Position numbers and translations under genes: made by a program
The notes under the pieces: model-generated
What the model was told of the DNA's origin: nothing
Database searches by the model: none
What the model saw: the letters and a program-made list of their open reading frames with translations, nothing else
DNA from: Nymphaea colorata
Lineage: Eukaryota > Streptophyta > Magnoliopsida > Nymphaeales > Nymphaeaceae
Reading direction: 5' to 3'
NCBI RefSeq assembly: GCF_008831285.2
Contig: NC_045148.1
Location: 9,551,001-9,615,000 of the forward strand
DNA length: 64,000 nt
Shown here: positions 37,210-64,000 of the stretch, in pieces
Layout of the letters: each line of letters opens with the position of its first letter
Numbering within the stretch: position 1 is the stretch's first letter

Positions 37210-38400
37210 CATGAGCAACGAGCGAGGGAAGAAGGGAGGCGCAGGAAGAAGGGGGCAATGGAGGAGGAAGAAGAGGCAGAGAAGGGAGGCAATGGAGGAG
37301 GAAGAAGGGAGCGAAGGAGGACGGAGGGAGGCGTAGGAAGAAGAGACGCAACAGAGGAAGAGGAAGGGAGGAAAAGAGGACGAAGGGAACGAGGGAGGAA
37401 GAAGGAGGGAGGCAAAGGAGCGGAGGAAGAAGAAGGGAGGCAATGGAGGAAGAAAGGAGGTAGGAAGAAGGGAGCGAGGGAAGAAGAAGGGAGGAAGGAG
37501 GCAGGAAGAAGGGAGGCAACAGAGGAAGAGAGGAAGTCAGGAAGAAGGGAGGCGAAGGAAGAAGCAGGGAGGAAGAAGGGGAAGGCATAGGAAGAAGGGA
37601 GGAAGAAGGGAGGTGCAGGAAGAAGGAAGCGAGGGAGGAAGAAGAAGGGAGCGAGGGAGGAAGGGAGGCGCAGGAAGAGGGGAGTGAAGGAGGCGGAGGA
37701 AGGAGGAAGGGAGGCGCAGGAAGAGGGGAGCGAAGGAGGAAGAAGAAGGGAGGCACAGGAAGAAGGGGGAAGAAAGGAGGGGCAGGAAGAAGGGAGGCAG
37801 TAGAGGAAAAAGAATGGAGGTGTAGGAAGAATGAAGTGGGGTAGGAAAAAGGGATGCGGAGGAAGAAGAAGGGAGGCATAGGAAGAATGGAGGGAGGAAG
37901 AAGGGAGGCAGCGGAGGAAGAAGAAGGGTCCTAAGAAAGGAGGCGTAGGAAGAAGGGAGCGAGGGAGGAAGGAAGAATGGAGGAGGAAGAAGGGAGGCAA
38001 TGGAGGAAGGAGGGAGGCGTAGGAAGAAGGGATGCCACAGAGGAAGAGGAAGGGAGGAAGATAGGACAAAGGGAACGAGGGAGGAAGAAGGGAGGCAGCG
38101 GAGGAAGAAGAAGGGAGGCAATGGAGGAAGAAAGGAGGTAGGAAGAAGGGAGCGAGGGAAGAAGAAGGGAGGAAGGAGGCAAGAAGAAGGGAGCGAAGGA
38201 AGAAGAAGGGAGGCAACAGAGGAAGAGAGGAAGTCAGGAAGAAGGGAGCGAGGGAGGAAGAAGGGAGGCGAAGGAAGAAGCAGGGAGGAAGAAGGGGGAG
38301 GCGTAGGAAGAACGAAGCAAGGAGGAAGACGGAAGGGAGGCGCAGGAAGGAGGAAGGGAGGCGGAGGAAGAGGGGAGCGAAAGAGGAAGAAGAAGGGGGG
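37210..38400. repeat. purine-rich flank, diverged partial copy of the array's A/G block
   Basis: Made of ggaagaagggagg-type units. From about 37760 to 37950 it aligns with 39480-39650 of unit 1, through landmarks such as agaggaaaaagaatggaggt, gggatgcggaggaag and gggtcctaag, with more differences than between array units. It joins unit 1 at 38400 without the AT-rich spacer. Confidence 0.8.
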
Positions 38401-38437
38401 CAGCAATCTCAAGAAACTGAATAACTAAGTGTGATGA

Positions 38438-38471
38438 CTGAGAAATAAACTTTCAGAAATTTATTTCTCAG
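38438..38471. repeat. unit hairpin, unit 1
   Basis: CTGAGAAATAAA and its exact reverse complement TTTATTTCTCAG, 10-base loop. Confidence 0.95.
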
Positions 38472-38500
38472 ATGAAAAAAAAAATATATTGCCAGGTTAA

Positions 38501-41088
38501 GGGGAAGAAGGGAGCAAGGGAGGAAGAAGAGAGCGAGCGAGGAAGAAGGGAGCGACGAGGAACGGCAGGCAGAGAAAGAAGGGATGGAGGGAGGAGGAAG
38601 AAGGGAGCGGGGAAGGAAAAAGGGAAGCGGAAGGGAGCGAGGAAGAAGGCGAGCGACGAAGGAAGAAGGGAGGCAGAAGGGAACGATGGAGGAGAAAGAA
38701 GGGAGAGAGGGAGGAAGAAGGGAGGCAGGGGAGGAAGAAGAAGGGAAGCGCAGGAAGAAGGGAGGGAGGGAGGCAGAGGAAGAAGGGAGGCAGAGGAAGA
38801 AGGAGGTAGGGAGGAAGAAGGAAGGCCGAGGAAGGAGGAAGGAAGAAGGGAGCCAACGGAGGAAGAAGAAGGGAGGCGCAGGAAGAAGGCAGCAAGGGAG
38901 GAAGAAGGAGAGAGGAAGAAAGGAGCAAGGGAGGAAAAAGGAGGGAGGAAGAAGTGAGACACTAGAGGAAGAAGAAGGGAGGTGCAGGAAGAAGGCAGCG
39001 AGGGAGGAAGAAGGAAGGCAGCGGAGGAAGAAGAAGGGAGGCGCAAAAAGAAGGGAGCGAGGGACGAAGAAGGGAGGCAGAGGAAGGAGGGAGGAAAAAG
39101 GAGGCAGCGGAGGAAGAAAAAAGGAGGAAGAAGAGAGGCGCAGGAAGAAAGGAGCGAGGGAGGAAGAAGGGACGCACAGGAAGAAGGGAGCAAGGGAGGA
39201 AGAAAGAGGGAGGAAGAAGGGAGGAACAACGGAGGCGGAGGAAGGAGGGAGGAAGAAGGGAGGCAGTGGAGGAAGAAGAAGGGAGGCACAGGAAGAAGGG
39301 AGCGAGGGAGGAAGAAGGGAAGCGAAGGAAGAAGCAGGGAGGAAGAAGGGAGCAAGGGAGGAAGAAGGGAGCGAGGGAGGAAGAAGAAGGGAGCGAGGGA
39401 GGAAGGAGGATGGGAGGCGGAGGAAAGAGGAAGGGAGGCGCAGGAAGAGAGGAGCGAAAGAGGAAGAAGAAGGGAGGCACAGGAAGAAGGGGGGCAGCGG
39501 AGGAAGAAGAAGGGAAGAAGGGAGGCAGTAGAGGAAAAAGAATGGAGGTGCAGGAAGAATGAAGTGAGGTAGGAAAAAGGGATGCGGAGGAAGAAGAAGG
39601 GAGGCACAAGAAGAAGGGAGGCAGCGGAGGAAGAAGAAGGGTCCTAAGAAGGGAGGCGTAGGAAGAAGGGAGCGAGGGAGGAAGAAGAGGAGGCAGCGGA
39701 GGAAGAAGAATGGAGGAAGACAGGAAGAAGAGAGCGAGCGAGGAAGAAGGGAGGCAGAGGAAGGAGGGAGGAAAAGGGAGGCGTTGGAAGGAGGGAGGAA
39801 GAAGGGAGGAAGCGGTGGAAGAAGTAGGGAGGAAGAGGGGAGCGAGGGAGGAAGAAGTAGGCAGGAAGAAGGGAGGCAGCGGAGGAAGAAGAAGGGTCCT
39901 AAGAAGGGAGGCGTAGGAAGAAGGGAGCGAGGGAGGAAGAAGGAGGAAGAAGAGGAGGCAGCGGAGGAAGACAGGAAGAAGAGAGCGAGCGAGGAAGAAG
40001 GGAGGCAGAGGAAGGAGGGAGGAAAAGGGAGGCGTTGGAAGGAGGGAGGAAGAAGGGAGGCAGCGGTGGAAGAAGTAGGGAGGAAGAGGGGAGCGAGGGA
40101 GGAAGAAGTAGGCAGGAAGAAGGGAGCGAAGGAGGAAGAAGGGAGCAAGGGAGGAAGAACGGAGGCGCATGAAGATGGAGGGAAGAAGAAGGGGCGCATG
40201 TACAAGGAGGAAGAAGGGAGGCGTAGGAAGAAGGAAGCGAGGGAGGAAGAAGAGAGGCGAAGGAAGGAAGGAGGAAGAAGGGAGGCGGAAGAAGATGGAG
40301 GGACGAAGAAGGGAGGCAGCGGAGGAAGAAGAAGGGTGGCAGTAAAGGAAGAAGGGAGGCAGCGGAGGAAGAAGAAGGGTCCTAAGAAGGGAGGCGTAGG
40401 AAGAAGGGAGCGAGGGAGGAAGAAGGAGGAAGGAAGAAGGGAGGCGTCGGAGGAATAAGAAAGGAGGAAGAAGGAAGCGAGGGTTGTAGAAGGAGGGAGG
40501 AAGAAGGGAGGCAGCGGAGGAAGAACAATGGAGGAAGGCAGGAACAAGGGAGAGAGGAAAAAAGAAGGAGGGAGGAAGAAGGAGGCGGAGGAAGAAGGGA
40601 AGCACAGGAACAAGGGAGACAGCGGAGGAGGAAGAATGGAGGCAGCGGAGGAAGAAGAAGGGAGGAAGACTGGAAAAAGGGAGCGAGGGGGGAAGAAGGA
40701 GGGAGGAATAAGGGAGGCAGCAGAGGAAGAAGAATGGAGGAAGGCAAGAAGAAGGGAGAGAGGGAGGAAGAAGGAGGGTGGAAGAAGGGAGGCATTGGAA
40801 GGAGGGAGGAAGAAGGGAGGCAACGGAGGAAGAAGAATGGAGGAAGACAGGAAGAAGGGAGGCGGAGGAAGAAGGAGGGAGGAAGAAGGGAGGCAGCAGA
40901 GGAAGTAGGAAGGAGGGAGGAAGAAGGGAGGCAGCAGAGGAAGTAAGAAGGAGGGAGGAAGAAGGGAGGCAGTGGAGGAAGAGGAAGGGAGGAAGATAGG
41001 AAGAAGGGAGCGAGGGGGGAAGAAGGGAGGCAGCGGTGGAAGAAGAAAGGAGGCGCACGAAGAAGGGAACGAGGGAGGCAGCAGAGGT
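38501..41088. repeat. polypurine minisatellite block, unit 1 (2588 bp)
   Basis: The plus strand is almost entirely A and G, built from variants of ggaagaagggagcgaggga (19), ggaagaagggaggcgca (17) and ggaagaagggaggcagcgga (20), with scattered C and rare T. Open frames up to 804 codons on the minus strand are a result of this composition. Confidence 0.95.
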
Positions 41089-42478
41089 AACTGTAAAAAA
41101 AAAAAACCGGAAAAACTTTTCCAGCACTCAGCTGGAAAATTTTTTCCAAAAATATATTTTCGTTTCCAGCCCCAACAGTCAAAAAAAATTTTCCATGTTT
41201 GATAAACTGGAAAAATTTTAAAAATTTGAAATAAGTTTCATGTGCTACCGTGAATTTCCAGCCCGTCAAACGTTTCCTAAAGGATGCAGTAAGAAAATCT
41301 TAACTACATCAATACAGTCACAAATGTGTGTCATGCACTCATCCAATAATAAAAGAATGAAAAGAGAAGAAAGCATAAGCACTGCATCATTATTATTAGT
41401 AATGATGCAACATCACACTCTGCCCCCTACTTGTCCCAACGAACAAGCACATTATAGGAAGCTTTTCTTTCAACAACATGAAAAGTAACAAAACAATAAA
41501 GCCCCCCAAATAAGTATTGAAAAGAAACGTTGTGCAAGTAACTGGCAAAACAAGGATAACCTTGAGATTCAATAATAAAGTCAACCAATCTGTTGAATCC
41601 CCATGCCCGCTCACAAATATTCTTCTCCTTAAATCAAATATTCAACAGAGTCAAGAGTGAAGTATTAATTGTTTAGCAAGGAGTACTTACTACAAGGAAC
41701 CCTGAACAAGAACATTATAAGTCCATATTCAAGAACAAAATTAACCCTGAATCAAACCAATTTTCTTTTTCTTTTATTTTATACTCACATTGGCAAATAT
41801 CCTTTGTTACTCAACTTAAGTCTGTGTCTGCAAAAGATTATATAATACTGATATCAACATTGTAAAACAAAAACTGCTTCAGATCTTTTGAACCCATCGT
41901 GTTTACAAAGTTCAATGTCATTTTCATATGCAACACATAAAGCAGAAAATGGAAACAGTAAAAAAGAGAACAGAGATGTGTTCAACGACAAACCTAAGCA
42001 AGAACTTCCATTCATTCGTCTTCATCTTTGGACAATACAACACCAAATGAAGGCCTTCTTTGCAAGCTGTTGATTTCCAGAAGCCAGAGTCTCGTTTCAT
42101 AATAAAATCTCTAACGAGAACATTCATCCTCAATCTTGCGATCAGGTATTTCACAAAACCCACAACCACATTGCGCTATTTGTAATCATCCTTAAACAAG
42201 CATGACAGTTATACCAAAAGAAATTCAATCCCTGCTGCTTGCAGCCACCTAATCACACGCTCATTATTCAACTCTGAGTGACATCTCAAAAACCAATAAC
42301 AATTTTTCTATAAGAAAGCCAAACAATAACGAATGAACACATCCCAAACTATTTTACCAATCACGCAATCCTCACATTTCATCTACTAACCATGACAAAG
42401 AAGAAACACTCAAAATTTTACTCCAATAAAACAAAACAAACTAAGAAAGAGTGGAATCGGTGGCGCATCTGAACTCAC

Positions 42479-42665
42479 CTTAATAACAACATGCATCCAG
42501 ACGATATTCTGATGATTAATCTCCAACTGCTTATTCGTTTGCCATCATGAATCTCCCTGTTTCTATCTCGATCTTCATCTCAATGGCACTTTTCATCTCC
42601 ACCACCAATGCCCATTCAATAACACCACTGCAACAATGTCCAAAGGAGCATTGATATGCCTCAAT
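42479..42665 (-). other. exon-like segment B, unit 1
   Basis: On the minus strand it is preceded by TCTCTTTTTGCAG (acceptor) and followed by GTGAGTTC (donor). It resembles segment A (42772-43004) in sequence (gcatatcaatgctcc, attgagat, gatattctg), so the two are duplicates. One frame is open for 48 codons (AYQCSFGHCCSG, IEMKIEIETG) and then stops. No known family. Confidence 0.4.
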
Positions 42666-42771
42666 CTGCAAAAAGAGAACATGGAGAACAAAGAAGAAAC
42701 ACTCAATTTTACTGCAACAAAACAAAAGAAACGAAGAAGGACAACGGAATCACTGGCCCATCCATGCTCAC

Positions 42772-43004
42772 CTCAATAACGTCATGCATCTGGACGATAT
42801 TCTGAAGATTAATCTCCGACAGCTGATTTGTTCGCCGCCATTAAACTCCCTGTTTCTATCTCAATCTATCTCGATATCTCCAACAGCTGATTCGTTCGCC
42901 GCCATTAATCTCCCTGTTTCTATCTCGATCTTGATCTCAATGGCACTTAATCATCTCCACCACCACTGTGACAATGTACAACGGAGCATTGATATGCCCT
43001 CAAT
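42772..43004 (-). other. exon-like segment A, unit 1
   Basis: Minus strand: preceded by TTTTCTTTTTGCAG (acceptor) and followed by GTGAGCATGG (donor). It contains an internal duplication of about 60 bp (ttcgccgccattaa..ctccctgtttctatctc). All three frames have stops, so if spliced it would be untranslated or part of a non-coding RNA. Confidence 0.4.
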
Positions 43005-43362
43005 CTGCAAAAAGAAAACGCAGTGAACGACAAGAAAATAAACGAAAGGAACGAGAGAACAATAAGAACCTCTACATCTTTCACAGGGCATTCTTGCAAG
43101 AAATCCTCATCCGCATCATCCGATTGCATCACCATTGTCACCCATTGACATCCGATGGCTCCGCCTCGTGAACGAACTCCTGCCATTAAAAGAAAGATAT
43201 GCTGCCCAAAGAGCTCAATGGTGGAGCAAGAAACGATCATGGAGAAAGAAGCGTGGGAATTTGCCAGCCCTAACATGCAACAAGAAGAAAATCATTGGAG
43301 AAAATAGCGACTGACTTTTTTTGTTTTTTTCCTAAAAACCAATGTGGACTCGAAGAAACTTT

Positions 43363-43413
43363 ATGGCGCATTTGATACCCACCGGCTTTCTTTCTTAGCA
43401 GATCAAACGCCAT
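43363..43413. repeat. short inverted repeat near 5' edge of exon-like region, unit 1
   Basis: atggcgcatttgat and atcaaacgccat face each other across 25 bases, resembling a small MITE or solo transposon ends. Present in every unit. Confidence 0.55.
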
Positions 43414-43649
43414 AGAAAGTGCGGGGATCAACCGTTCCACTTCATATGAGAAAAGAGTGGGCCACCGTCTTACCGATCATTGGGTTGGATCCCCACAAAA
43501 TATCTGTTGTCAAACCCAAGTGCTGAAAAGAGACCCGATCCATACCTATGACCCTTTTCTCGCCATGCTCAACTACATTCAAGACCCTGCTGGTAGCATA
43601 AGTCTTGGGCCGTGTTTGAGTCAGGAGACAGCTCAAATGAATTAAATGA

Positions 43650-45100
43650 GCTTCTCTAAAATCTACCCTTTTATTTGATCAGTCGGTCTCGATCGTCATC
43701 CCCAACTACAATAAACGAGAAATCTGCACATTATCATATTCACTTATTTATAAAAAACTAATTAAACTGATGACAAGAACTACTCATCAAATGACAACAT
43801 AAAAGAATATAATAGATTTTCGTGAGATATGGTCTCATTAAACAGCCATAAATGGCAAAAAGTTACCAGAACACACTTATTATCAAATATGAAATAAGTT
43901 TAAAAAAAGGAAATAGCACCCTGTCTCATGGGTGTGTGGTGATGACGTTGTAATCAACCAAGCCTATATAGAATCTCTAGAGACTAAAAGAAGGGTTGAA
44001 TATGATTGTTATATATTTGAACATATTCAACAAATACAACACTAAATTGTAAAAAATTTAAACAAAAAATAAAATGATACCTAACTTGTAGAAGAAATCA
44101 TGAAGTCAAACTTAGTAAATATTATAAAGAGACAAGTCTATAAATAACTTTTGAGAGAGAAAAGTAAGAACTAACAATAAATTTATCATAAAAAACATTT
44201 AACATGAAAAGATTTCTTAGCAAGTTAATCCTTGTCTGAAATGAATTAAAAAAACTATCATGTCTAATAAAAGTTTATATTTAAACCGTCGTCTAAAGCC
44301 CAACATCATAAACCTGAGTAAAAAAAACAATCATAAATGAGCTATTCACTAAAACAAAAGATATGCAAATCAAATAGCTCAATAACAAGTCTTGAAAAAA
44401 AAAGATAATGATAAGAGTATGTCAATATAAGATAAATAACCTTTTAACTTTTTAAAAGCCTAAGAATATATAATCATACAAAGCAAATTGAAGTAGTACA
44501 TAAAATTTGACAAAAATGTATAATCCTGTAATGAATAGAAGAAATGACACCATATCTTTCATTGATGTTAAAGATATAGTAAAAAGTTAGGTACAAAAGC
44601 TTCATAGATCCCCAAACCATATCTTAAATTGAAAAACTTCAAACAAACTCATCATACAAAAGCATTTAAAAATGAGAAAAATAAGACGTGAAGCTCTTAA
44701 AGTAGTAATATCAGGAAAATGAATAACTTGAGTTAGCTTTTAAATCTAATTAACAATGTGCACGTAATATAAATAAAAAAAAATGACAACACATATTGGA
44801 TGGACATTTAAGGATGTAGTAAAAGTTATCACCACAAGCTCCAAGCATCATTAAAAAAAGCTCAATAAATTCCCAAACCAGGTCTTCGAAATGGAAAACT
44901 CTAAAAAAAATTATCATCAAAAAAGTATTTAGAATCAGAAAATGTTTAATTAAGATAAATCATATTCATCAAAAAAATGAGAAAAAAGAAAATGTTTTGT
45001 CCACGAACCAGTAATCTCAAGAAATTGAATAGCTTCAATAATGTAATGTTTAACCAAGCTAAATCTTATTCATCAGCAATGAGAAAAAAAGAACGTGAAA
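43650..45100. other. AT-rich spacer, unit 1
   Basis: Very A-rich sequence with no open frame worth noting and no transposon signature. Repeated almost unchanged in units 2 and 3. Confidence 0.7.
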
Positions 45101-45147
45101 GTCCATGAAGCAGCAATCTCAAGAAACTGAATAACTAAGTGTGATGA

Positions 45148-45181
45148 CTGAGAAATAAACTTTCAGAAATTTATTTCTCAG
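45148..45181. repeat. unit hairpin, unit 2
   Basis: Same 12-bp stem and loop as 38438-38471. Confidence 0.95.
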
Positions 45182-45210
45182 ATGAAAAAAAAAATATATT
45201 GCCAGGTTAA

Positions 45211-47737
45211 GGGGAAGAAGGGAGCAAGGGAGGAAGAAGAGAGCGAGCGAGGAAGAAGGGAGCGACGAGGAACGGCAGGCAGAGAAAGAAGGGATGGAGG
45301 GAGGAGGAAGAAGGGAGCGAAGGAGGAAGAAGGGAGCGAGGAAGGAAAAAGGGAGGCGGAAGGGAGCGAGGAAGAAGGCAAGCGATGAAGGAAGAAGGGA
45401 AGGAGGTAGGCAGAAGGGAGCGAGGAAGAAGGCGAGCGACGAAGGAAGAAGGGAGGCAGAAGAAGAAGGGAACGATGGAGGAGAAAGAAGGGAGAGAGGG
45501 AGGAAGAAGGGAGGCAGGGGAGGAAGAAGAAGGGAAGCGCAGGAAGAAGGGAGGGAGGGAGGCAGAGGAAGAAGGGAGGCAGAGGAAGAAGGAGGTAGGG
45601 AGGAAGAAGGAAGGCCGAGGAAGGAGGAAGGAAGAAGGGAGCCAACGAAGGAAGAAGAAGGGAGGCGCAGGAAGAAGGCAGCAAGGGAGGAAGAAGGAGA
45701 GAGGAAGAAAGGAGGCGCAGGAAGAAGGGAGCAAGGGAGGAAAAAGGAGGGAGGAAGAAGTGAGACACTAGAGGAAGAAGAAGGGAGGCGCAGGAAGAAG
45801 GCAGCGAGGGAGGAAGAAGGGAGGCGCAAAAAGAAGGGAGCGAGGGACGAAGAAGGGAGGCGCAAAAAGAAGGGAGCGAGGGACGAAGAAGGGAGGCAGA
45901 GGAAGGAGGGAGGAAAAAGGAGGCAGCGGAGGAAGAAAGAGGGAGGAAGAAGAGAGGCGCAGGAAGAAAGGAGCGAGGGAGGAAGAAGGGACGCGCAGGA
46001 AGAAGGGAGCAAGGGAGGAAGAAAGAGGGAGGAAGAAGGGAGGAACAGGAAGAAGGGAGAGAGGGAGGAACAACGGAGGCGGAGGAAGGAGGGAGGAAGA
46101 AGGGAGCCACAGGAAGAAGGGAGCGAGGGAGGAAGAAGGGAGGCGAAGGAAGAAGCAGGGAGGAAGAAGGGAGAGGTGTAGGAAGAAGGGAGCAAGGGAG
46201 GAAGAAGGGAGCGAGGGAGGAAGAAGAAGGGAGCGAGGGAGGAAGGAGGAAGGGAGGCGGAGGAAAGAGGAAGGGAGGCGCAGGAAGAGGGGAGCGAAAG
46301 AGGAAGAAGAAGGGAGGCACAGGAAGAAGGGGGGCAGCGGAGGAAGAAGAAGGGAAGAAGGGAGGCAGTAGAGGAAAAAGAATGGAGGTGCAGGAAGAAT
46401 GAAGTGAGGTAGGAAAAAGGGATGCGGAGGAAGAAGAAGGAGGCACAAGAAGAAGGGAGGCAGCGGAGGAAGAAGAAGGGTCCTAAGAAGGGAGGCGTAG
46501 GAAGAAGGGAGCGAGGGAGGAAGAAGAGGAGGCAGCGGAGGAAGAAGAATGGAGGAAGACAGGAAGAAGAGAGCGAGCGAGGAAGAAGGGAGGCAGAGGA
46601 AGGAGGGAGGAAAAGGGAGGCGTTGGAAGGAGGGAGGAAGAAGGGAGGAAGCGGTGGAAGAAGTAGGGAGGAAGAGGGGAGCGAGGGAGGAAGAAGGGAG
46701 CGAAGGAGGAAGAAGGGAGCAAGAACGGAGGCGCATGAAGATGGAGGGAAGAAGAAGGGAGGCGCATGTACAAGGAGGAAGAAGGGAGGCATAGGAAGAA
46801 GGAAGCGAGGGAGGAAGAAGGGAGGCGAAAGAAGGAAGGAGGAAGAAGGGAGGCGGAAGAAGATGGAGGGACAAAGAAGGGAGGCAGCGGAGGAAGAAGA
46901 AGGGTGGCAGTAAAGGAAGAAGGGAGGCAGCGGAGGAAGAAGAAGGGTCCTAAGAAGGGAGGCGTAGGAAGAAGGGAGCGAGGGAGGAAGAAGGAGGAAG
47001 GAAGAAGGGAGGCGTCGGAGGAATAAGAAAGGAGGAAGAAGGGAGGCAGCGGAGGAAGAAGAAGGGAGGCACAAGGAGGAGGAAGGAAGAAGGGAGGCAG
47101 CAGAGGAAGAAGAAGGGAAGCACTGGAAGAAGGGAGGAAGAAGGAAGAGAGGGTTGTAGAAGGAGGGAGGAAGAAGGGAGGCAGCGGAGGAAGAAGAATG
47201 GAGGAAGGCAGGAAGAAGGGGAGAGGAAAAAAGAAGGAGGGAGGAAGAAGGGAGGCGGAGGAAGAAGGGAAGCACAGGAACAAGGGAGACAGCGGAGGAG
47301 GAAGAATGGAGGCAGCGGAGGAAGAAGAAGGGAGGAAGACTGGAAAAAGGTAGCGAGGGGGGAAGAAGGAGGGAGGAATAAGGGAGGCAGCAGAGGAAGA
47401 AGAATGGAGGAAGGCAAGAAGAAGGGAGAGAGGGAGGAAGAAGGAGGGTGGAAGAAGGGAGGCGTTGGAAGGAGGGAGGAAGAAGGGAGGCGGAGGAAGA
47501 AGGGAGGCAGCGGAGGAAGAAGAATGGAGGAAGACAGGAAGAAGGGAGGCGGAGGAAGAAGGAGGGAGGAAGAAGGGAGGCAGCAGAGGAAGTAGGAAGG
47601 AGGGAGGAAGAAGGGAGGCAGTGGAGGAAGAGGAAGGGAGGAAGATAGGAAGAAGGGAGCGAGGGGGGAAGAAGGGAGGCAGCGGTGGAAGAAGAAAGGA
47701 GGCGCAGGAAGAAGGGAACGAGGGAGGCAGCAGAGGT
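45211..47737. repeat. polypurine minisatellite block, unit 2 (2527 bp)
   Basis: Shortest block. Two gggtcctaag landmarks (about 46480 and 46947). It differs from unit 1 by gain and loss of whole 17-20 bp subunits. Confidence 0.95.
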
Positions 47738-49126
47738 AACTGTAAAAAAAAAAAACCGGAAAAACTTTTCCAGCACTCAGCTGGAAAATTTTTTCCAAAA
47801 ATATATTTTCGTTTCCAGCCCCAACAGTCAAAAAAAATTTTCCATGTTTGATAAACTGGAAAAATTTTAAAAATTTGAAATAAGTTTCATGTGCTACCGT
47901 GAATTTCCAGCCCGTCAAACGTTTCCTAAAGGATGCAGTAAGAAAATCTTAACTACATCGATACAGTCACAATGTGTGTCATGCACTCATCCAATAATAA
48001 AAGAATGAAAAGAGAAGAAAGCATAAGCACTGCATCATTATTATTAGTAATGATGCAACATCACACTCTGCCCCCTACTTGTCCCAATGAACAAGCACAT
48101 TATAGGAAGCTTTTCTTTCAACAACATGAAAAGTAACAAAACAATAAAGCCCCCCAAATAAGTATTGAAAAGAAACGTTGTGCAAGTAACTGGCAAAACA
48201 AGGATAACCTTGAGATTCAATAATAAAGTCAACCAATCTGTTGAATCCCCATGCCCGCTCACAAATATTCTTCTCCTTAAATCAAATATTCAACAGAGTC
48301 AAGAGTGAAGTATTAATTGTTTAGCAAGGAGTACTTACTACAAGGAACCCTGAACAAGAACATTATAAGTCCATATTCAAGAACAAAATTAACCCTGAAT
48401 CAAACCAATTTTCTTTTTCTTTTATTTTATACTCACATTGGCAAATATCCTTTGTTACTCAACTTAAGTCTGTGTCTGCAAAAGATTATATAATACTGAA
48501 ATCAACATTGTATAACAAAAACTGCTTCAGATCTTTTGAACCCATCGTGTTTACAAAGTTCAATGTCATTTTCATATGCAACACATAAAGCAGAAAATGG
48601 AAACAGTAAAAAAGAGAACAGAGATGTGTTCAACGACAAACCTAAGCAAGAACTTCCATTCATTCGTCTTCATCTTTGGACAATACAACACCAAATGAAG
48701 GCCTTCTTTGCAAGCTGTTGATTTCCAGAAGCCAGAGTCTCGTTTCATAATAAAATCTCTAACGAGAACATTCATCCTCAATCTAGCGATCAGGTATTTC
48801 ACAAAACCCACAACCACATTGCGCTATTTGTAATCATCCTTAAACAAGCATGACAGTTATACCAAAAGAAATTCAATCCCTGCTGCTTGCAGCCACCTAA
48901 TCACACGCTCATTATTCAACTCTGAGTGACATCTCAAAAACCAATAACAATTTTTCTATAAGAAAGCCAAACAATAACGAATGAACACATCCCAAACTAT
49001 TTTACCAATCACGCAATCCTCACATTTCATCTACTAACCATGACAAAGAAGAAACGCTCAAAATTTTACTCCAATAAAACAAAACAAACTAAGAAAGAGT
49101 GGAATCGGTGGCCCATCTGAACTCAC

Positions 49127-49313
49127 CTTAATAACAACATGCATCCAGACGATATTCTGATGATTAATCTCCAACTGCTTATTCGTTTGCCGTCATGAAT
49201 CTCCCTGTTTCTATCTCGATCTTCATCTCAATGGCACTTTTCATCTCCACCACCAATGCCCATTCAATAACACCACTGCAACAATGTCCAAAGGAGCATT
49301 GATATGCCTCAAT
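49127..49313 (-). other. exon-like segment B, unit 2
   Basis: Same acceptor and donor as 42479-42665. Confidence 0.4.
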
Positions 49314-49419
49314 CTGCAAAAAGAGAACATGGAGAACAAAGAAGAAACACTCAATTTTACTGCAACAAAACAAAAGAAACGAAGAAGGACAACGGAATCA
49401 CTGGCCCATCCATGCTCAC

Positions 49420-49652
49420 CTCAATAACGTCATGCATCTGGACGATATTCTGAAGATTAATCTCCGACAGCTGATTTGTTCGCCGCCATTAAACTCCCTG
49501 TTTCTATCTCAATCTATCTCGATATCTCCAACAGCTGATTCGTTCGCCGCCATTAATCTCCCTGTTTCTATCTCGATCTTGATCTCAATGGCACTTAATC
49601 ATCTCCACCACCACTGTGACAATGTACAACGGAGCATTGATATGCCCTCAAT
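49420..49652 (-). other. exon-like segment A, unit 2
   Basis: Same acceptor and donor as 42772-43004. Confidence 0.4.
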
Positions 49653-51794: not shown

Positions 51795-51828
51795 CTGAGA
51801 AATAAACTTTCAGAAATTTATTTCTCAG
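51795..51828. repeat. unit hairpin, unit 3
   Basis: Same 12-bp stem and loop as 38438-38471. Confidence 0.95.
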
Positions 51829-51857
51829 ATGAAAAAAAAAATATATTGCCAGGTTAA

Positions 51858-54420
51858 GGGGAAGAAGGGAGCAAGGGAGGAAGAAGAGAGCGAGCGAGGA
51901 AGAAGGGAGCGACGAGGAACGGCAGGCAGAGAAAGAAGGGATGGAGGGAGGAGGAAGAAGGGAGCGAAGGAGGAAGAAGGGAGCGAGGAAGGAAAAGGGA
52001 GGCGGAAGGGAGCGAGGAAGAAGGCGAGCGATGAAGGAAGAAGGGAAGGAGGGAGGCAGAAGGGAGCGAGGAAGAAGGCGAGCGACGAAGGAAGAAGGGA
52101 GGCAGAAGAAGAAGGGAACGATGGAGGAGAAAGAAGGGAGAGAGGGAGGAAGAAGGGAGGCAGGGGAGGAAGAAGAAGGGAAGCGCAGGAAGAAGGGAGG
52201 GAGGGAGGCAGAGGAAGAAGGGAGGCAGAGGAAGAAGGAGGTAGGGAGGAAGAAGGAAGGCCGAGGAAGGAGGAAGGAAGAAGGGAGCCAACGGAGGAAG
52301 AAGAAGGGAGGCGCAGGAAGAAGGCAGCAAGGGAGGAAGAAGGAGAGAGGAAGAAAGGAGGCGCAGGAAGAAGGGAGCAAGGGAGGAAAAAGGAGGGAGG
52401 AAGAAGTGAGACACTAGAGGAAGAAGAAGGGAGGCGCAGGAAGAAGGCAGCGAGGGAGGAAGAAGGAAGGCGGAGGAAGAAGGGAGGCAGCGGAGGAAGA
52501 AGAAGGGAGGCGCAAAAAGAAGGGAGCGAGGGACGAAGAAGGGAGGCAGAGGAAGGAGGGAGGAAAAAGGAGGCAGCGGAGGAAGAAAAAGGGAGGAAGA
52601 AGAGAGGCGCAGGAAGAAAGGAGCGAGGGAGGAAGAAGGGAAGCGGAGGAAGAAGAAGGGACGCGCAGGAAGAAGGGAGCAAGGGAGGAAGAAAGAGGGA
52701 GGAAGAAGGGAGGAACAGGAAGAAGGGAGAGAGGGAGGAACAACGGAGGCGGAGGAAGGAGGGAGGAAGAAGGGAGGCACAGGAAGAAGGGAGCGAGGGA
52801 GGAAGAAGGGAGGCGAAGGAAGAAGCAGGGAGGAAGAAGGGAGAGGTGTAGGAAGAAGGGAGCAAGGGAGGAAGAAGGGAGCGAGGGAGGAAGAAGAAGG
52901 GAGCGAGGGAGGAAGGAGGAAGGGAGGCGGAGGAAAGAGGAAGGGAGGCGCAGGAAGAGGGGAGCGAAAGAGGAAGAAGAAGGGAGGCACAGGAAGAAGG
53001 GGGGCAGCGGAGGAAGAAGAAGGGAAGAAGGGAGGGGCAGGAAGAAGGGAGGCAGTAGAGGAAAAAGAATGGAGGTGCAGGAAGAATGAAGTGAGGTAGG
53101 AAAAAGGGATGCGGAGGAAGAAGAAGGGAGGCACAAGAAGAAGGGAGGCAGCGGAGGAAGAAGAAGGGTCCTAAGAAGGGAGGCGTAGGAAGAAGAGGAG
53201 GCAGCGGAGGAAGAAGAATGGAGGAAGACAGCAAGAAGAGAGCGAGCGAGGAAGAAGGGAGGCAGAGGAAGGAGGGAGGAAAAGGGAGGCGTTGGAAGGA
53301 GGGAGGAAGAAGGGAGGAAGCGGTGGAAGAAGTAGGGAGGAAGAGGGGAGCGAGGGAGGAAGAAGTAGGCAGGAAGAAGGGAGCGAAGGAGGAAGAAGGG
53401 AGCAAGAACGGAGGCGCATGAAGATGGAGGGAAGAAGAAGGGAGGCGCATGTACAAGGAGGAAGAAGGGAGGCGTAGGAAGAAGGAAGCGAGGGAGGAAG
53501 AAGGGAGGCGAAGGAAGGAAGGAGGAAGAAGGGAGGCGGAAGAAGATGGAGGGACAAAGAAGGGAGGCAGCGGAGGAAGAAGAAGGGTGGCAGTAAAGGA
53601 AGAAGGGAGGCAGCGGAGGAAGAAGAAGGGTCCTAAGAAGGGAGGCGTAGGAAGAAGGGAGCGAGGGAGGAAGAAGGAGGAAGGAAGAAGGGAGGCGTCG
53701 GAGGAATAAGAAAGGAGGAAGAAGGGAGGCAGCGGAGGAAGAAGAAGGGAGGCACAAGGAGGAGGAAGGAAGAAGGGAGGCAGCAGAGGAAGAAGAAGGG
53801 AAGCACTGGAAGAAGGGAGGAAGAAGGAAGAGAGGGTTGTAGAAGGAGGGAGGAAGAAGGGAGGCAGCGGAGGAAGAAGAATGGAGGAAGGCAGGAAGAA
53901 GGGGGAGAGGAAAAAAGAAGGAGGGAGGAAGAAGGGAGGCGGAGGAAGAAGGGAAGCACAGGAACAAGGGAGACAGCGGAGGAGGAAGAATGGAGGCAGC
54001 AGAGGAAGAAGAAGGGAGGAAGACTGGAAAAAGGTAGCGAGGGGGGAAGAAGGAGGGAGGAATAAGGGAGGCAGCAGAGGAAGAAGAATGGAGGAAGGCA
54101 AGAAGAAGGGAGAGAGGGAGGAAGAAGGAGGGTGGAAGAAGGGAGGCGTTGGAAGGAGGGAGGAAGAAGGGAGGCGGAGGAAGAAGGGAGGCAGCGGAGG
54201 AAGAAGAATGGAGGAAGACAGGAAGAAGGGAGGCGGAGGAAGAAGGAGGGAGGAAGAAGGGAGGCAGCAGAGGAAGTAGGAAGGAGGGAGGAAGAAGGGA
54301 GGCAGTGGAGGAAGAGGAAGGGAGGAAGATAGGAAGAAGGGAGCGAGGGGGGAAGAAGGGAGGCAGCGGTGGAAGAAGAAAGGAGGCGCAGGAAGAAGGG
54401 AACGAGGGAGGCAGCAGAGG
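51858..54420. repeat. polypurine minisatellite block, unit 3 (2563 bp)
   Basis: Nearly identical to the unit 4 block; a 517-codon minus frame translates identically in both. Confidence 0.95.
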
Positions 54421-55809
54421 TAACTGTAAAAAAAAAAAACCAGAAAAACTTTTCCAGCACTCAGCTGGAAAATTTTTTCCAAAAATATATTTTCGTTTCC
54501 AGCCCCAACAGTCAAAAAAAATTTTCCATGTTTGATAAACTGGAAAAATTTTAAAAATTTGAAATAAGTTTCATGTGCTACCGTGAATTTCCAGCCCGTC
54601 AAACGTTTCCTAAAGGATGCAGTAAGAAAATCTTAACTACATCAATACAGTCACAAATGTGTGTCATGCACTCATCCAATAATAAAAGAATGAAAAGAGA
54701 AGAAAGCATAAGCACTGCATCATTATTATTAGTAATGATGCAACATCACACTCTGCCCCTACTTGTCCCAACGAACAAGCACATTATAGGAAGCTTTTCT
54801 TTCAACAACATGAAAAGTAACAAAACAATAAAGCACCCCAAATAAGTATTGAAAAGAAACGTTGTGCAAGTAACTGGCAAAACAAGGATAACCTTGAGAT
54901 TCAATAATAAAGTCAACCAATCTGTTGAATCCCCATGCCCGCTCACAAATATTCTTCTCCTTAAATCAAATATTCAACAGAGTCAAGAGTGAAGTATTAA
55001 TTGTTTAGCAAGGAGTACTTACTACAAGGAACCCTGAACAAGAACATTATAAGTCCATATTCAAGAACAAAATTAACCCTGAATCAAACCAATTTTCTTT
55101 TTCTTTTATTTTATACTCACATTGGCAAATATCCTTTGTTACTCAACTTAAGTCTGTGTCTGCAAAAGATTATATAATACTGAAATCAACATTGTATAAC
55201 AAAAACTGCTTCAGATCTTTTGAACCCATCGTGTTTACAAAGTTCAATGTCATTTTCATATGCAACACATAAAGCAGAAAATGGAAACAGTAAAAAAGAG
55301 AACAGAGATGTGTTCAACGACAAACCTAAGCAAGAACTTCCATTCATTCGTCTTCATCTTTGGACAATACAACACCAAATGAAGGCCTTCTTTGCAAGCT
55401 GTTGATTTCCAGAAGCCAGAGTCTCGTTTCATAATAACATCTCTAACGAGAACATTCATCCGCAATCTAGCGATCAGGTATTTCACAAAACCCACAACCA
55501 CATTGCGCTATTTGTAATCATCCTTAAACAAGCATGACAGTTATACCAAAGAAATTCAATCCCTGCTGCTTGCAGCCACCTAATCACACGCTCATTATTC
55601 AACTCTGAGTGACATCTCAAAAACCAATAACAATTTTTCTATAAGAAAGCCAAACAATAACGAATGAACACATCCCAAACTATTTTACCAATCACGCAAT
55701 CCTCACATTTCATCTACTAACCATGACAAAGAAGAAACGCTCAAAATTTTACTCCAATAAAACAAAACAAACTAAGAAAGAGTGGAATCGGTGGCCCATC
55801 TGAACTCAC

Positions 55810-55996
55810 CTTAATAACAACATGCATCCAGACGATATTCTGATGATTAATCTCCAACTGCTTATTCGTTTGCCGTCATGAATCTCCCTGTTTCTATCTC
55901 GATCTTCATCTCAATGGCACTTTTCATCTCCACCACCAATGCCCATTCAATAACACCACTGCAACAATGTCCAAAGGAGCATTGATATGCCTCAAT
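55810..55996 (-). other. exon-like segment B, unit 3
   Basis: Same acceptor and donor as 42479-42665. Confidence 0.4.
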
Positions 55997-56102
55997 CTGC
56001 AAAAAGAGAACATGGAGAACAAAGAAGAAACACTCAATTTTACTGCAACAAAACAAAAGAAACGAAGAAGGACAACGGAATCACTGGCCCATCCATGCTC
56101 AC

Positions 56103-56355
56103 CTCAATAACGTCATGCATCTGGACGATATTCTGAAGATTAATCTCCGACAGCTGATTTGTTCGCCGCCATTAAACTCCCTGTTTCTATCTCAATCTAT
56201 CTCGATATCTCCAACAGCTGATTCGTTCGCCGCCATTAATCTCCCTGTTTCTATCTCGATCTTGATCTCAATGGCACTTAATCATCTCCACCACCACTGC
56301 CCATTCATTAACACCACTGTGACAATGTACAACGGAGCATTGATATGCCCTCAAT
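56103..56355 (-). other. exon-like segment A, unit 3 (253 bp)
   Basis: As 42772-43004 but with 20 additional bases (gcccattcattaacaccact). Segment B has a similar stretch, so the longer form is probably ancestral. Confidence 0.4.
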
Positions 56356-58497
56356 CTGCAAAAAGAAAACGCAGTGAACGACAAGAAAATAAACGAAAGG
56401 AACGAGAGAACAATAAGAACCTCTACATCTTTCACAGGGCATTCTTGCAAGAAATCCTCATCCGCATCATCCGATTGCATCACCATTGTCACCCATTGAC
56501 ATCCGATGGCTCCGCCTCGTGAACGAACTCCTGCCATTAAAAGAAAGATATGCTGCCCAAAGAGCTCAATGGTGGAGCAAGAAACGATCATGGAGAAAGA
56601 AGGGTGGGAATTTGCCAGCCCTAACATGCAACAAGAAGAAAATCATTGGAGAAAATAGCGACTGACTTTTTTTGTTTTTTTCCTAAAAACCAATGTGGAC
56701 TCGAAGAAACTTTATGGCGCATTTGATACCCACCGGCTTTCTTTCTTAGCAGATCAAACGCCATAGAAAGTGCGGGGATCAACCGTTCCACTTCATATGA
56801 GAAAAGAGTGGGCCACCGTCTTACCGATCATTGGGTTGGATCCCCACAAAATATCTGTTGTCAAACCCAAGTGCTGAAAAGAGACCCGATCCATACCTAT
56901 GACCCTTTTCTCGCCATGCTCAACTACATTCAAGACCCTGCTGGTAGCATAAGTCTTGGGCCGTGTTTGAGTCAGGAGACAGCTCAAATGAATTAAATGA
57001 GCTTCTCTAAAATCTACCCTTTTATTTGATCAGTCGGTCTCGATCGTCATCCCCAACTACAATAAACGAGAAATCTGCACATTATCATATTCACTTATTT
57101 ATAAAAAACTAATTAAACTGATGACAAGAACTACTCATCAAATGACAACATAAAAGAATATAATAGATTTTCGTGAGATATGGTCTCATTAAACAGCCAT
57201 AAATGGCAAAAAGTTACCAGAACACACTTATTATCAAATATGAAATAAGTTTAAAAAAAGGAAATAGCACCCTGTCTCATGGGTGTGTGGTGATGACGTT
57301 GTAATCAACCAAGCCTATATAGAATCTCTAGAGACTAAAAGAAGGGTTGAATATGATTGTTATATATTTGAACATATTCAACAAATACAACACTAAATTG
57401 TAAAAAATTTAAACAAAAACTAAAATGATACCTAACTTGTAGAAGAAATCATGAAGTCAAACTTAGTAAATATTATAAAGAGACAAGTCTATAAATAACT
57501 TTTGAGAGAGAAAAGTAAGAACTAACAATAAATTTATCATAAAAAACATTTAACATGAAAAGATTTCTTAGCAAGTTAATCCTTGTCTGAAATGAATTAA
57601 AAAAACTATCATGTCTAATAAAAGTTTATATTTAAACCGTCGTCTAAAGCCCAACATCATAAACCTGAGTAAAAAAAACAATCATAAATGAGCTATTCAC
57701 TAAAACAAAAGATATGCAAATCAAATAGCTCAATAACAAGTCTTGAAAAAAAAAGATAATGATAAGAGTATGTCAATATAAGATAAATAACCTTTTAACT
57801 TTTTAAAAACCTAAGAATATATAATCATACAAAGCAAATTGAAGTAGTACATAAAATTTGACAAAAATGTATAATCCTGTAATGAATAGAAGAAATGACA
57901 CCATATCTTTCATTGATGTTAAAGATATAGTAAAAAGTTAGGTACAAAAGCTTCATAGATCCCCAAACCATATCTTAAATTGAAAAACTTCAAACAAACT
58001 CATCATACAAAAGCATTTAAAAATGAGAAAAATAAGACGTGAAGCTCTTAAAGTAGTAATATCAGGAAAATGAATAACTTGAGTTAGCTTTTAAATCTAA
58101 TTAACAATGTGCACGTAATATAAATAAAAAAAAATGACAACACATATTGGATGGACATTTAAGGATGTAGTAAAAGTTATCACCACAAGCTCCAAGCATC
58201 ATTAAAAAAGCTCAATAAATTCCCAAACCAGGTCTTCGAAATGGAAAACTCTAAAAAAAATTATCATCAAAAAAGTATTTAGAATCAGAAAATGTTTAAT
58301 TAAGATAAATCATATTCATCAAAAAAATGAGAAAAAAGAAAATGTTTTGTCCACGAACCAGTAATCTCAAGAAATTGAATAGCTTCAATAATGTAATGTT
58401 TAACCAAGCTAAATCTTATTCATCAGCAATGAGAAAAAAAGAACGTGAAAGTCCATGAAGCAGCAATCTCAAGAAACTGAATAACTAAGTGTGATGA

Positions 58498-58531
58498 CTG
58501 AGAAATAAACTTTCAGAAATTTATTTCTCAG
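58498..58531. repeat. unit hairpin, unit 4
   Basis: Same 12-bp stem and loop as 38438-38471. Confidence 0.95.
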
Positions 58532-58560
58532 ATGAAAAAAAAAATATATTGCCAGGTTAA

Positions 58561-61124
58561 GGGGAAGAAGGGAGCAAGGGAGGAAGAAGAGAGCGAGCGA
58601 GGAAGAAGGGAGCGACGAGGAACGGCAGGCAGAGAAAGAAGGGATGGAGGGAGGAGGAAGAAGGGAGCGAAGGAGGAAGAAGGGAGCGAGGAAGGAAGAA
58701 GGGAGGCGGAAGGGAGCGAGGAAGAAGGCGAGCGATGAAGGAAGAAGGGAAGGAGGGAGGCAGAAGGGAGCGAGGAAGAAGGCGAGCGACGAAGGAAGAA
58801 GGGAGGCAGAAGAAGAAGGGAACGATGGAGGAGAAAGAAGGGAGAGAGGGAGGAAGAAGGGAGGCAGGGGAGGAAGAAGAAGGGAAGCGCAGGAAGAAGG
58901 GAGGGAGGGAGGCAGAGGAAGAAGGGAGGCAGAGGAAGAAGGAGGTAGGGAGGAAGAAGGAAGGCCGAGGAAGGAGGAAGGAAGAAGGGAGCCAACGGAG
59001 GAAGAAGAAGGGAGGCGCAGGAAGAAGGCAGCAAGGGAGGAAGAAGGAGAGAGGAAGAAAGGAGGCGCAGGAAGAAGGGAGCAAGGGAGGAAAAAGGAGG
59101 GAGGAAGAAGTGAGACACTAGAGGAAGAAGAAGGGAGGCGCAGGAAGAAGGCAGCGAGGGAGGAAGAAGGAAGGCGGAGGAAGAAGGGAGGCAGCGGAGG
59201 AAGAAGAAGGGAGGCGCAAAAAGAAGGGAGCGAGGGACGAAGAAGGGAGGCAGAGGAAGGAGGGAGGAAAAAGGAGGCAGCGGAGGAAGAAAAAGGGAGG
59301 AAGAAGAGAGGCGCAGGAAGAAAGGAGCGAGGGAGGAAGAAGGGAAGCGGAGGAAGAAGAAGGGACGCGCAGGAAGAAGGGAGCAAGGGAGGAAGAAAGA
59401 GGGAGGAAGAAGGGAGGAACAGGAAGAAGGGAGAGAGGGAGGAACAACGGAGGCGGAGGAAGGAGGGAGGAAGAAGGGAGGCACAGGAAGAAGGGAGCGA
59501 GGGAGGAAGAAGGGAGGCGAAGGAAGAAGCAGGGAGGAAGAAGGGAGAGGTGTAGGAAGAAGGGAGCAAGGGAGGAAGAAGGGAGCGAGGGAGGAAGAAG
59601 AAGGGAGCGAGGGAGGAAGGAGGAAGGGAGGCGGAGGAAAGAGGAAGGGAGGCGCAGGAAGAGGGGAGCGAAAGAGGAAGAAGAAGGGAGGCACAGGAAG
59701 AAGGGGGGCAGCGGAGGAAGAAGAAGGGAAGAAGGGAGGGGCAGGAAGAAGGGAGGCAGTAGAGGAAAAAGAATGGAGGTGCAGGAAGAATGAAGTGAGG
59801 TAGGAAAAAGGGATGCGGAGGAAGAAGAAGGGAGGCACAAGAAGAAGGGAGGCAGCGGAGGAAGAAGAAGGGTCCTAAGAAGGGAGGCGTAGGAAGAAGA
59901 GGAGGCAGCGGAGGAAGAAGAATGGAGGAAGACAGCAAGAAGAGAGCGAGCGAGGAAGAAGGGAGGCAGAGGAAGGAGGGAGGAAAAGGGAGGCGTTGGA
60001 AGGAGGGAGGAAGAAGGGAGGAAGCGGTGGAAGAAGTAGGGAGGAAGAGGGGAGCGAGGGAGGAAGAAGTAGGCAGGAAGAAGGGAGCGAAGGAGGAAGA
60101 AGGGAGCAAGAACGGAGGCGCATGAAGATGGAGGGAAGAAGAAGGGAGGCGCATGTACAAGGAGGAAGAAGGGAGGCGTAGGAAGAAGGAAGCGAGGGAG
60201 GAAGAAGGGAGGCGAAGGAAGGAAGGAGGAAGAAGGGAGGCGGAAGAAGATGGAGGGACAAAGAAGGGAGGCAGCGGAGGAAGAAGAAGGGTGGCAGTAA
60301 AGGAAGAAGGGAGGCAGCGGAGGAAGAAGAAGGGTCCTAAGAAGGGAGGCGTAGGAAGAAGGGAGCGAGGGAGGAAGAAGGAGGAAGGAAGAAGGGAGGC
60401 GTCGGAGGAATAAGAAAGGAGGAAGAAGGGAGGCAGCGGAGGAAGAAGAAGGGAGGCACAAGGAGGAGGAAGGAAGAAGGGAGGCAGCAGAGGAAGAAGA
60501 AGGGAAGCACTGGAAGAAGGGAGGAAGAAGGAAGAGAGGGTTGTAGAAGGAGGGAGGAAGAAGGGAGGCAGCGGAGGAAGAAGAATGGAGGAAGGCAGGA
60601 AGAAGGGGGAGAGGAAAAAAGAAGGAGGGAGGAAGAAGGGAGGCGGAGGAAGAAGGGAAGCACAGGAACAAGGGAGACAGCGGAGGAGGAAGAATGGAGG
60701 CAGCAGAGGAAGAAGAAGGGAGGAAGACTGGAAAAAGGTAGCGAGGGGGGAAGAAGGAGGGAGGAATAAGGGAGGCAGCAGAGGAAGAAGAATGGAGGAA
60801 GGCAAGAAGAAGGGAGAGAGGGAGGAAGAAGGAGGGTGGAAGAAGGGAGGCGTTGGAAGGAGGGAGGAAGAAGGGAGGCGGAGGAAGAAGGGAGGCAGCG
60901 GAGGAAGAAGAATGGAGGAAGACAGGAAGAAGGGAGGCGGAGGAAGAAGGAGGGAGGAAGAAGGGAGGCAGCAGAGGAAGTAGGAAGGAGGGAGGAAGAA
61001 GGGAGGCAGTGGAGGAAGAGGAAGGGAGGAAGATAGGAAGAAGGGAGCGAGGGGGGAAGAAGGGAGGCAGCGGTGGAAGAAGAAAGGAGGCGCAGGAAGA
61101 AGGGAACGAGGGAGGCAGCAGAGG
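58561..61124. repeat. polypurine minisatellite block, unit 4 (2564 bp)
   Basis: Within one base of the unit 3 block in length. The minus strand is open for 945 codons across the block and both edges, which the other units do not keep in the same frame. Confidence 0.95.
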
Positions 61125-62515
61125 TAACTGTAAAAAAAAAAAACCAGAAAAACTTTTCCAGCACTCAGCTGGAAAATTTTTTCCAAAAATATATTTTCGT
61201 TTCCAGCCCCAACAGTCAAAAAAAATTTTCCATGTTTGATAAACTGGAAAAATTTTAAAAATTTGAAATAAGTTTCATGTGCTACCGTGAATTTCCAGCC
61301 CGTCAAACGTTTCCTAAAGGATGCAGTAAGAAAATCTTAACTACATCAATACAGTCACAAATGTGTGTCATGCACTCATCCAATAATAAAAGAATGAAAA
61401 GAGAAGAAAGCATAAGCACTGCATCATTATTATTAGTAATGATGCAACATCACACTCTGCCCCCTACTTGTCCCAACGAACAAGCACATTATAGGAAGCT
61501 TTTCTTTCAACAACATGAAAAGTAACAAAACAATAAAGCACCCCAAATAAGTATTGAAAAGAAACGTTGTGCAAGTAACTGGCAAAACAAGGATAACCTT
61601 GAGATTCAATAATAAAGTCAACCAATCTGTTGAATCCCCATGCCCGCTCACAAATATTCTTCTCCTTAAATCAAATATTCAACAGAGTCAAGAGTGAAGT
61701 ATTAATTGTTTAGCAAGGAGTACTTACTACAAGGAACCCTGAACAAGAACATTATAAGTCCATATTCAAGAACAAAATTAACCCTGAATCAAACCAATTT
61801 TCTTTTTCTTTTATTTTATACTCACATTGGCAAATATCCTTTGTTACTCAACTTAAGTCTGTGTCTGCAAAAGATTATATAATACTGAAATCAACATTGT
61901 ATAACAAAAACTGCTTCAGATCTTTTGAACCCATCGTGTTTACAAAGTTCAATGTCATTTTCATATGCAACACATAAAGCAGAAAATGGAAACAGTAAAA
62001 AAGAGAACAGAGATGTGTTCAACGACAAACCTAAGCAAGAACTTCCATTCATTCGTCTTCATCTTTGGACAATACAACACCAAATGAAGGCCTTCTTTGC
62101 AAGCTGTTGATTTCCAGAAGCCAGAGTCTCGTTTCATAATAACATCTCTAACGAGAACATTCATCCGCAATCTAGCGATCAGGTATTTCACAAAACCCAC
62201 AACCACATTGCGCTATTTGTAATCATCCTTAAACAAGCATGACAGTTATACCAAAAGAAATTCAATCCCTGCTGCTTGCAGCCACCTAATCACACGCTCA
62301 TTATTCAACTCTGAGTGACATCTCAAAAACCAATAACAATTTTTCTATAAGAAAGCCAAACAATAACGAATGAACACATCCCAAACTATTTTACCAATCA
62401 CGCAATCCTCACATTTCATCTACTAACCATGACAAAGAAGAAACGCTCAAAATTTTACTCCAATAAAACAAAACAAACTAAGAAAGAGTGGAATCGGTGG
62501 CCCATCTGAACTCAC

Positions 62516-62702
62516 CTTAATAACAACATGCATCCAGACGATATTCTGATGATTAATCTCCAACTGCTTATTCGTTTGCCGTCATGAATCTCCCTGTTTC
62601 TATCTCGATCTTCATCTCAATGGCACTTTTCATCTCCACCACCAATGCCCATTCAATAACACCACTGCAACAATGTCCAAAGGAGCATTGATATGCCTCA
62701 AT
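62516..62702 (-). other. exon-like segment B, unit 4
   Basis: Same acceptor and donor as 42479-42665. Confidence 0.4.
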
Positions 62703-62808
62703 CTGCAAAAAGAGAACATGGAGAACAAAGAAGAAACACTCAATTTTACTGCAACAAAACAAAAGAAACGAAGAAGGACAACGGAATCACTGGCCCATCC
62801 ATGCTCAC

Positions 62809-63061
62809 CTCAATAACGTCATGCATCTGGACGATATTCTGAAGATTAATCTCCGACAGCTGATTTGTTCGCCGCCATTAAACTCCCTGTTTCTATCTCA
62901 ATCTATCTCGATATCTCCAACAGCTGATTCGTTCGCCGCCATTAATCTCCCTGTTTCTATCTCGATCTTGATCTCAATGGCACTTAATCATCTCCACCAC
63001 CACTGCCCATTCATTAACACCACTGTGACAATGTACAACGGAGCATTGATATGCCCTCAAT
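62809..63061 (-). other. exon-like segment A, unit 4 (253 bp)
   Basis: Long form, as in unit 3. Confidence 0.4.
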
Positions 63062-64000
63062 CTGCAAAAAGAAAACGCAGTGAACGACAAGAAAATAAAC
63101 GAAAGGAACGAGAGAACAATAAGAACCTCTACATCTTTCACAGGGCATTCTTGCAAGAAATCCTCATCCCCATCATCCGATTGCATCACCATTGTCACCC
63201 ATTGACATCCAATGGCTCCGCCTCGTGAACGAACTCCTGCCATTAAAAGAAAGATATGCTGCCCAAAGAGCTCAATGGTGGAGCAAGAAACGATCATGGA
63301 GAAAGAAGGGTGGGAATTTGCCAGCCCTAACATGCAACAAGAAGAAAATCATTGGAGAAAATAGCGACTCACTTTTTTTGTTTTTTTCCTAAAAACCAAT
63401 GTGGACTCGAAGAAACTTTATGGCGCATTTGATACCCACCGGCTTTCTTTCTTAGCAGATCAAACGCCATAGAAAGTGCGGGGATCAACCGTTCCACTTC
63501 ATATGAGAAAAGAGTGGGCCACCGTCTTACCGATCATTGGGTTGGATCCCCACAAAATATCTGTTGTCAAACCCAAGTGCTGAAAAGAGACCCGATCCAT
63601 ACCTATGACCCTTTTCTCGCCATGCTCAACTACATTCAAGACCCTGCTGGTAGCATAAGTCTTGGGCCGTGTTTGAGTCAGGAGACAGCTCAAATGAATT
63701 AAATGAGCTTCTCTAAAATCTACCCTTTTATTTGATCAGTCGGTCTCGATCGTCATCCCCAACTACAATAAACGAGAAATCTGCACATTATCATATTCAC
63801 TTATTTATAAAAAACTAATTAAACTGATGACAAGAACTACTCATCAAATGACAACATAAAAGAATATAATAGATTTTCGTGAGATATGGTCTCATTAAAC
63901 AGCCATAAATGGCAAAAAGTTACCAGAACACACTTATTATCAAATATGAAATAAGTTTAAAAAAAGGAAATAGCACCCTGTCTCATGGGTGTGTGGTGAT

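Follow-up and report, generated by a model that had tools for sequence, protein, structure and literature searches.

Background

Tandem arrays with units of several kilobases are an already known kind of sequence in plants, with published monomers of up to 5.9 kb. They include the Sobo repeat of Solanum (4.7 kb), centromeric satellites of up to 5.4 kb in the same genus and satellites of rye B chromosomes with monomers of 0.9-4.0 kb (PMC5895790), as well as the 5.9-kb 2D8 satellite of Solanum bulbocastanum, which resembles the intergenic spacer of ribosomal DNA (rDNA) (PMC8122249). As far as the relevant passages of these two papers go, most other long-monomer plant satellites resemble retrotransposons or are complex. 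Here, we describe an array of units of about 6.7 kb in a 64,000-nucleotide stretch of Nymphaea colorata DNA (RefSeq assembly GCF_008831285.2, contig NC_045148.1, positions 9,551,001 to 9,615,000, forward strand), the whole of which we call the window. The array shares with the published satellites its multi-kilobase tandem monomers, some of which are complex; here the unit measures 6.7 kb, has no Rfam match and no retrotransposon mark that we found, and is seen in 3.8 copies.

Local arrays of shorter units have been described on wheat chromosome arm 7DS, where TaeCsTr99 and other repeats of 1167-2726 bp form arrays with between 8 and about 40 units (PMC6567227). Like the array analysed here, they contain internal deletions and variant sub-arrays; the passages on these repeats do not mention a polypurine composite. 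Among human macrosatellites, D4Z4 has units of 3.3 kb and DXZ4, which is CpG-rich, has 12-100 units of 3 kb; both are likewise locus-bound arrays of kilobase units (PMC8122249). Retand elements, as outlined in PMC11963269, carry tandem repeats within a retrotransposon, a context not found for the unit here.

The human arrays differ in the CpG richness of DXZ4 and in having known roles, whereas the array described here is known from sequence alone. A preliminary reading made from the letters of the DNA (hereafter, the sequence-only reading) knew of no described family with this composition. Among the matches listed in our literature search, which covered few subscription journals, no paper describes a hairpin/polypurine composition; long complex plant monomers as such have been described.

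An array of composite units

We consider it likely that the locus is a local, young, macrosatellite-like array whose repeated segment is composite and probably non-coding, and that the array grew by unequal exchange or template switching. Self-comparison of the window with BLAST aligned 38713-57294 with 45213-64000 (18,909 columns, 96.3% identity) and 38400-50591 with 51757-64000 (93.9% identity), and 14,659 successive spacings of 20-mers with 2-29 occurrences fell within 6600-6799 (7488 + 7171). At least three complete copies and part of a fourth lie head to tail on the plus strand (at least 3.8 units seen). Alignments place unit 1 at 38401..45110 (6710 bp), unit 2 at 45111..51757 (6647 bp), unit 3 at 51758..58460 (6703 bp) and the partial unit 4 at 58461..64000, where the end of the window cuts it after 5540 bp; the array runs past this point. 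The sequence-only reading had given starts at 38401, 45111, 51758 and 58461 and periods of 6710, 6647 and 6703, all of which hold in the self-comparison, although only three of its four units are full. The sequence common to the units starts one base before each of these landmarks (38400 for unit 1). Highly alike head-to-tail units of one to several kilobases, as seen here, are one mark of a macrosatellite, another being a high copy number at one or few loci that varies among individuals; the term, which had been suggested for the locus, fits it as a description.

Each unit comprises, in plus-strand order, a 109-bp hairpin segment that is identical across all four units, a purine-rich minisatellite that accounts for roughly two fifths of the length, a second hairpin, a mosaic segment and an AT-rich spacer. 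The first hairpin (45148..45181 in unit 2) is separated by about 30 bp from the polypurine tract that follows it and has a 12-bp stem and a DNA fold z of -3.17, with 1 of 200 shuffles folding as well; the exact 31-base hairpin pattern had no match among viral contigs. The hairpin noticed in the sequence-only reading is thus real (z -3.2), but a stronger one (z -5.2) stands on the opposite side of the tract: the second hairpin (41109..41147), about 20 bp past it, has a fold z of -5.18 that none of 200 shuffles equalled.

The non-purine segment of unit 1 (41088..43950) contains short open reading frames (ORFs), no domain that we found and an internal duplication within 42395-43028, with spacings of about 290-340 bp. 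It is followed by the AT-rich spacer (43951..45110), at the end of which a repeat of 102-104 bp is present twice (44941-45133) and extends across the unit border. The DNA beyond the 109-bp segment and the minisatellite comes to about 4.02 kb per unit. The non-purine part as a whole (109-bp segment plus rest) measures 4132 bp in unit 1, 4130 bp in unit 2 and 4149 bp in unit 3, where the sequence-only reading had proposed an almost constant 4120-4140 bp.

In the unit alignment, the polypurine minisatellites occupy 38510..41087, 45220-47735, 51867-54420 and 58570-61124 on the plus strand and are 2578, 2517, 2554 and 2555 bp long in units 1-4, that is, about 2.5 kb per unit (2517-2578 bp) for a tract previously put at 2.6 kb. 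The tract of unit 2 is 91% A+G, and the recurrent motif is GGAAGAAGGGAGG/C. The minisatellite is noisy: Tandem Repeats Finder (TRF) rows longer than 900 bp show 58-76% matches. At the left edge of the array, a purine stretch of 3.9 kb consists of the unit 1 tract and a separate, older tract (37.2-38.4 kb).

Apparently recent, stepwise growth

Outside the purine tract, unit pairs differ at 0.10-0.49% of the compared sites: 9/4021 substitutions for units 1 and 2, 13/4020 for 1 and 3, 14/2856 for 1 and 4, 9/4018 for 2 and 3, 11/2855 for 2 and 4, and 3/2874 for 3 and 4. Plant substitution rates are about 0.65-1.3e-8 per site per year, at which a divergence of 0.3% would correspond, as a rough guide only, to about 0.1-0.25 million years.

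All seven substitutions that divide the units two against two separate units 1 and 2 from units 3 and 4, where we counted columns that contain two letters and no gap and are represented in every unit; in the first alignment, five of them lie in the non-purine part and two in the purine tract. In addition, units 1 and 2 lack 20 bp between CACCACTG repeats (at 42960..42961) that are found in unit 3 (at 56292) and unit 4 (at 62998). Because an internal paralogue within the unit (~42600-42640) carries the longer form of this region, the 20-bp deletion is the derived state and joins units 1 and 2. The branching order is shown to be ((1,2),(3,4)), the pattern of stepwise duplication. The sequence-only reading had left open whether the amplification was recent or homogenised. 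Recent head-to-tail amplification is supported, with non-purine parts that differ by 0.1-0.5%; homogenisation is not supported and none is detectable, given that 0/7 informative substitutions conflict with simple branching.

Indels are concentrated in the purine tract, with 24 runs there against 6 elsewhere in the first alignment. When the tracts were aligned in an indel-tolerant way, substitutions came to 0-1.16%, and gaps of 17-25 bp or longer were numerous. With cheap gaps, the tracts of units 1 and 2 differ by 26 substitutions in 2241 sites with 18 gaps, a figure that replaces a first count of 44/2262, rejected as partly due to misaligned minisatellite indels; those of units 2 and 3 differ by 16 in 2496 sites with 9 gaps, and those of units 3 and 4 by none in 2554, with one inserted base. 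The tract diverges more than the rest of the unit in five of the six pairs, the exception being units 3 and 4 (0/2554 vs 3/2874). The tract of unit 1 has an excess of 251-265 bp, and the sequence at 39712-39875 recurs 251 bp further on. Taken by themselves, the tract differences would group unit 2 with units 3 and 4 rather than with unit 1; we read this distance as a probable long branch of unit 1, because the indel states shared by units 2-4 do not polarise old versus new.

Unit 4 departs from unit 3 by three substitutions, all of which lie within about 200 bp (43113-43313 in unit 1 coordinates).

The left edge of the array

At the left array joint (38400..38404), polypurine sequence meets spacer sequence at GCAGC. 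The older polypurine minisatellite outside the units, P1 (37200..38399, plus strand), extends up to the GCAGCAATCTC of the unit (GCAGC, 38400-38404), and at the start of units 2, 3 and 4 these letters come after spacer sequence. The 102-104-bp spacer repeat is continuous across the border within the array and interrupted at the left edge. Because the same point inside the array falls within this 104-bp repeat, we infer that the border within the array is native and that the left edge is an abnormal joint at the 5-bp microhomology GCAGC. The pentamer is common in the tract of unit 1, which contains 19 copies, all of them preceded by G (19/19).

P1 is about 72-77% like the unit tracts, as judged by the best six matches per unit. 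The unit 1 tract compared with itself at an offset reaches 75.0%, about the same value, and P1 is therefore old rather than something left recently by a unit. Directly before P1 lie diverged direct repeats (36324..37094, plus strand) about 400-450 bp apart, which BLAST pairs as 36324-36523 with 36773-36959 (71.4%) and 36598-36690 with 37001-37094 (76.6%); these are repeats of another kind.

How the array arose

The array appears recent and real as sequence, and the polypurine tract probably eased unequal exchange. Under the preferred reading of local growth, the ancestral order would have been polypurine - non-purine - spacer - hairpin - polypurine. A duplication would then result from unequal exchange when the two purine tracts paired out of register, or when complete units did so after a second had formed; alternatively, the template might switch after the purine tract has stalled replication. 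Later steps would enlarge the array after this first duplication, and a separate microhomology-mediated joining event may have created the left edge.

Several observations weigh against this scenario. The right end of the array lies beyond the window, which places the duplication joint itself outside view, and exchange between the 104-bp spacer repeats would also yield a border that looks continuous. Structural signals, assessed in the unit 2 tract, are weak: the tract contains no three-tetrad G-quadruplex motif, 36 two-tetrad motifs (a count made without shuffle comparison) and three mirror repeats with arms of at least 12, not clearly above the mean of 0.75 and maximum of 3 in 20 shuffles.

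The least unlikely of the alternatives is that a circle was excised by exchange between polypurine tracts and amplified by rolling-circle replication, with the multimer reinserted at the P1 microhomology. This route would account for the head-to-tail order, the microhomology at the left edge and the apparently native border inside the array. A single rolling-circle burst predicts star-like relationships among the units, whereas the order found is nested; later exchanges could have added such nesting. The array is seen from one edge only. We regard this origin as unlikely.

More doubtful is the view that a gene, or a fragment of one, was duplicated in tandem; this would be compatible with local growth by unequal exchange and is not exclusive of it. 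Its candidate is a minus-strand stop-to-stop ORF of 114-124 amino acids that contains a stretch starting MAGVRSRGG, and the short ORFs, together with splice-like borders (read by eye) of an internally duplicated region, speak in its favour. However, no Pfam family scored above its cut-off for two unit ORFs (among nine proteins searched) and seven unit peptides, one of which joins two others; the best score for these ORFs and exon-like peptides, 13.4 bits, was that of SAMP, for which the cut-off is 19.6. The longest non-purine ORFs also vary between units with the 20-bp indel, which is not a multiple of three and shifts the plus-strand ORF from 123 to 178 amino acids and the minus-strand ORF from 114 to 124. 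The duplicated gene segment proposed in the sequence-only reading, though possible, is unsupported, and what it described as exon-like matches no Pfam family at a score above a curated cut-off. Minus-strand ORFs of 885-955 amino acids that run across the purine tract were rejected as genes: purely pyrimidine codons cannot be stops, and open frames of this kind are expected from composition. Rfam gave no match at the gathering score in the window, where the ribosomal RNA genes of a 45S or 5S rDNA array were accordingly not found.

An assembly artefact, in which units 3 and 4 are one unit doubled by the assembler, is improbable. Their purine tracts are identical save for the one inserted base, and the rest differs by just three substitutions in the 2874 sites compared; these substitutions and single-base indels do, however, separate the two units. 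Units 3 and 4 are the least certain pair, and for them assembly duplication is a serious worry. Units 1, 2 and 3 are clearly distinct: each has its own substitutions and minisatellite indels, and they are therefore not copies that the assembler made of a single unit.

We give still less credence to the idea of a self-amplifying cassette, in which the hairpin - polypurine - hairpin block would block replication or seed exchange and so turn adjoining single-copy DNA into a kilobase-scale satellite; were this true, the block would recur at other loci of the genome, next to other passenger DNA.

Finally, a tandem chain of a long terminal repeat (LTR) retrotransposon or a non-autonomous derivative is the least probable origin: 38401-64000 contains no primer-binding site of the transfer RNA (tRNA)-Met type at up to two mismatches, the unit peptides tested carry no retrotransposon domain, and BLAST at E 0.01 found nothing in 1-38400 that matches 41080-45215. 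As regards an array of Helitrons or other DNA transposons, the inverted repeats listed include no convincing long terminal pair, although no search was aimed at transposon termini. Pfam, Rfam and the tRNA-Met primer-site search thus yield no evidence that would suggest the unit to be a gene or a retrotransposon.

Other features of the window

An apparently young copia-type element occupies 8275-13434. Its 236-bp LTRs are 100% identical, it has a perfect tRNA-Met primer-binding site at 8511, and its coding part, with gag and RVT_2 domains, is spread over more than one ORF. A copia RVT_2 fragment lies at 28970-29440, and a zf-RVT domain at 4845-5288 (E 4.9e-16), presumably as in plant long interspersed nuclear elements. 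Inverted copies at 1364-2553 and 27679-28885 are 85% alike, with adjoining matches between 557-1259 and 28888-29546 (81%), and 23508-24214 matches 1845-2552 (89%). Closer to the array, 34831-35070 and 35142-35380 are GC-rich and CT-rich copies, 88% alike and pyrimidine-rich on the strand on which the unit tracts are purine-rich. A degenerate minisatellite with AACCGGT-type motifs, read by eye, spans 31920-32600.

Implications

Taken alone, the array is an ordinary product of repeat dynamics. It is, nevertheless, a long-unit array apparently caught early, with few units in view, a relationship among them that is still tree-like and a visible left edge. As such, it is useful for studying how long-unit satellites begin and whether polypurine minisatellites serve as exchange points.

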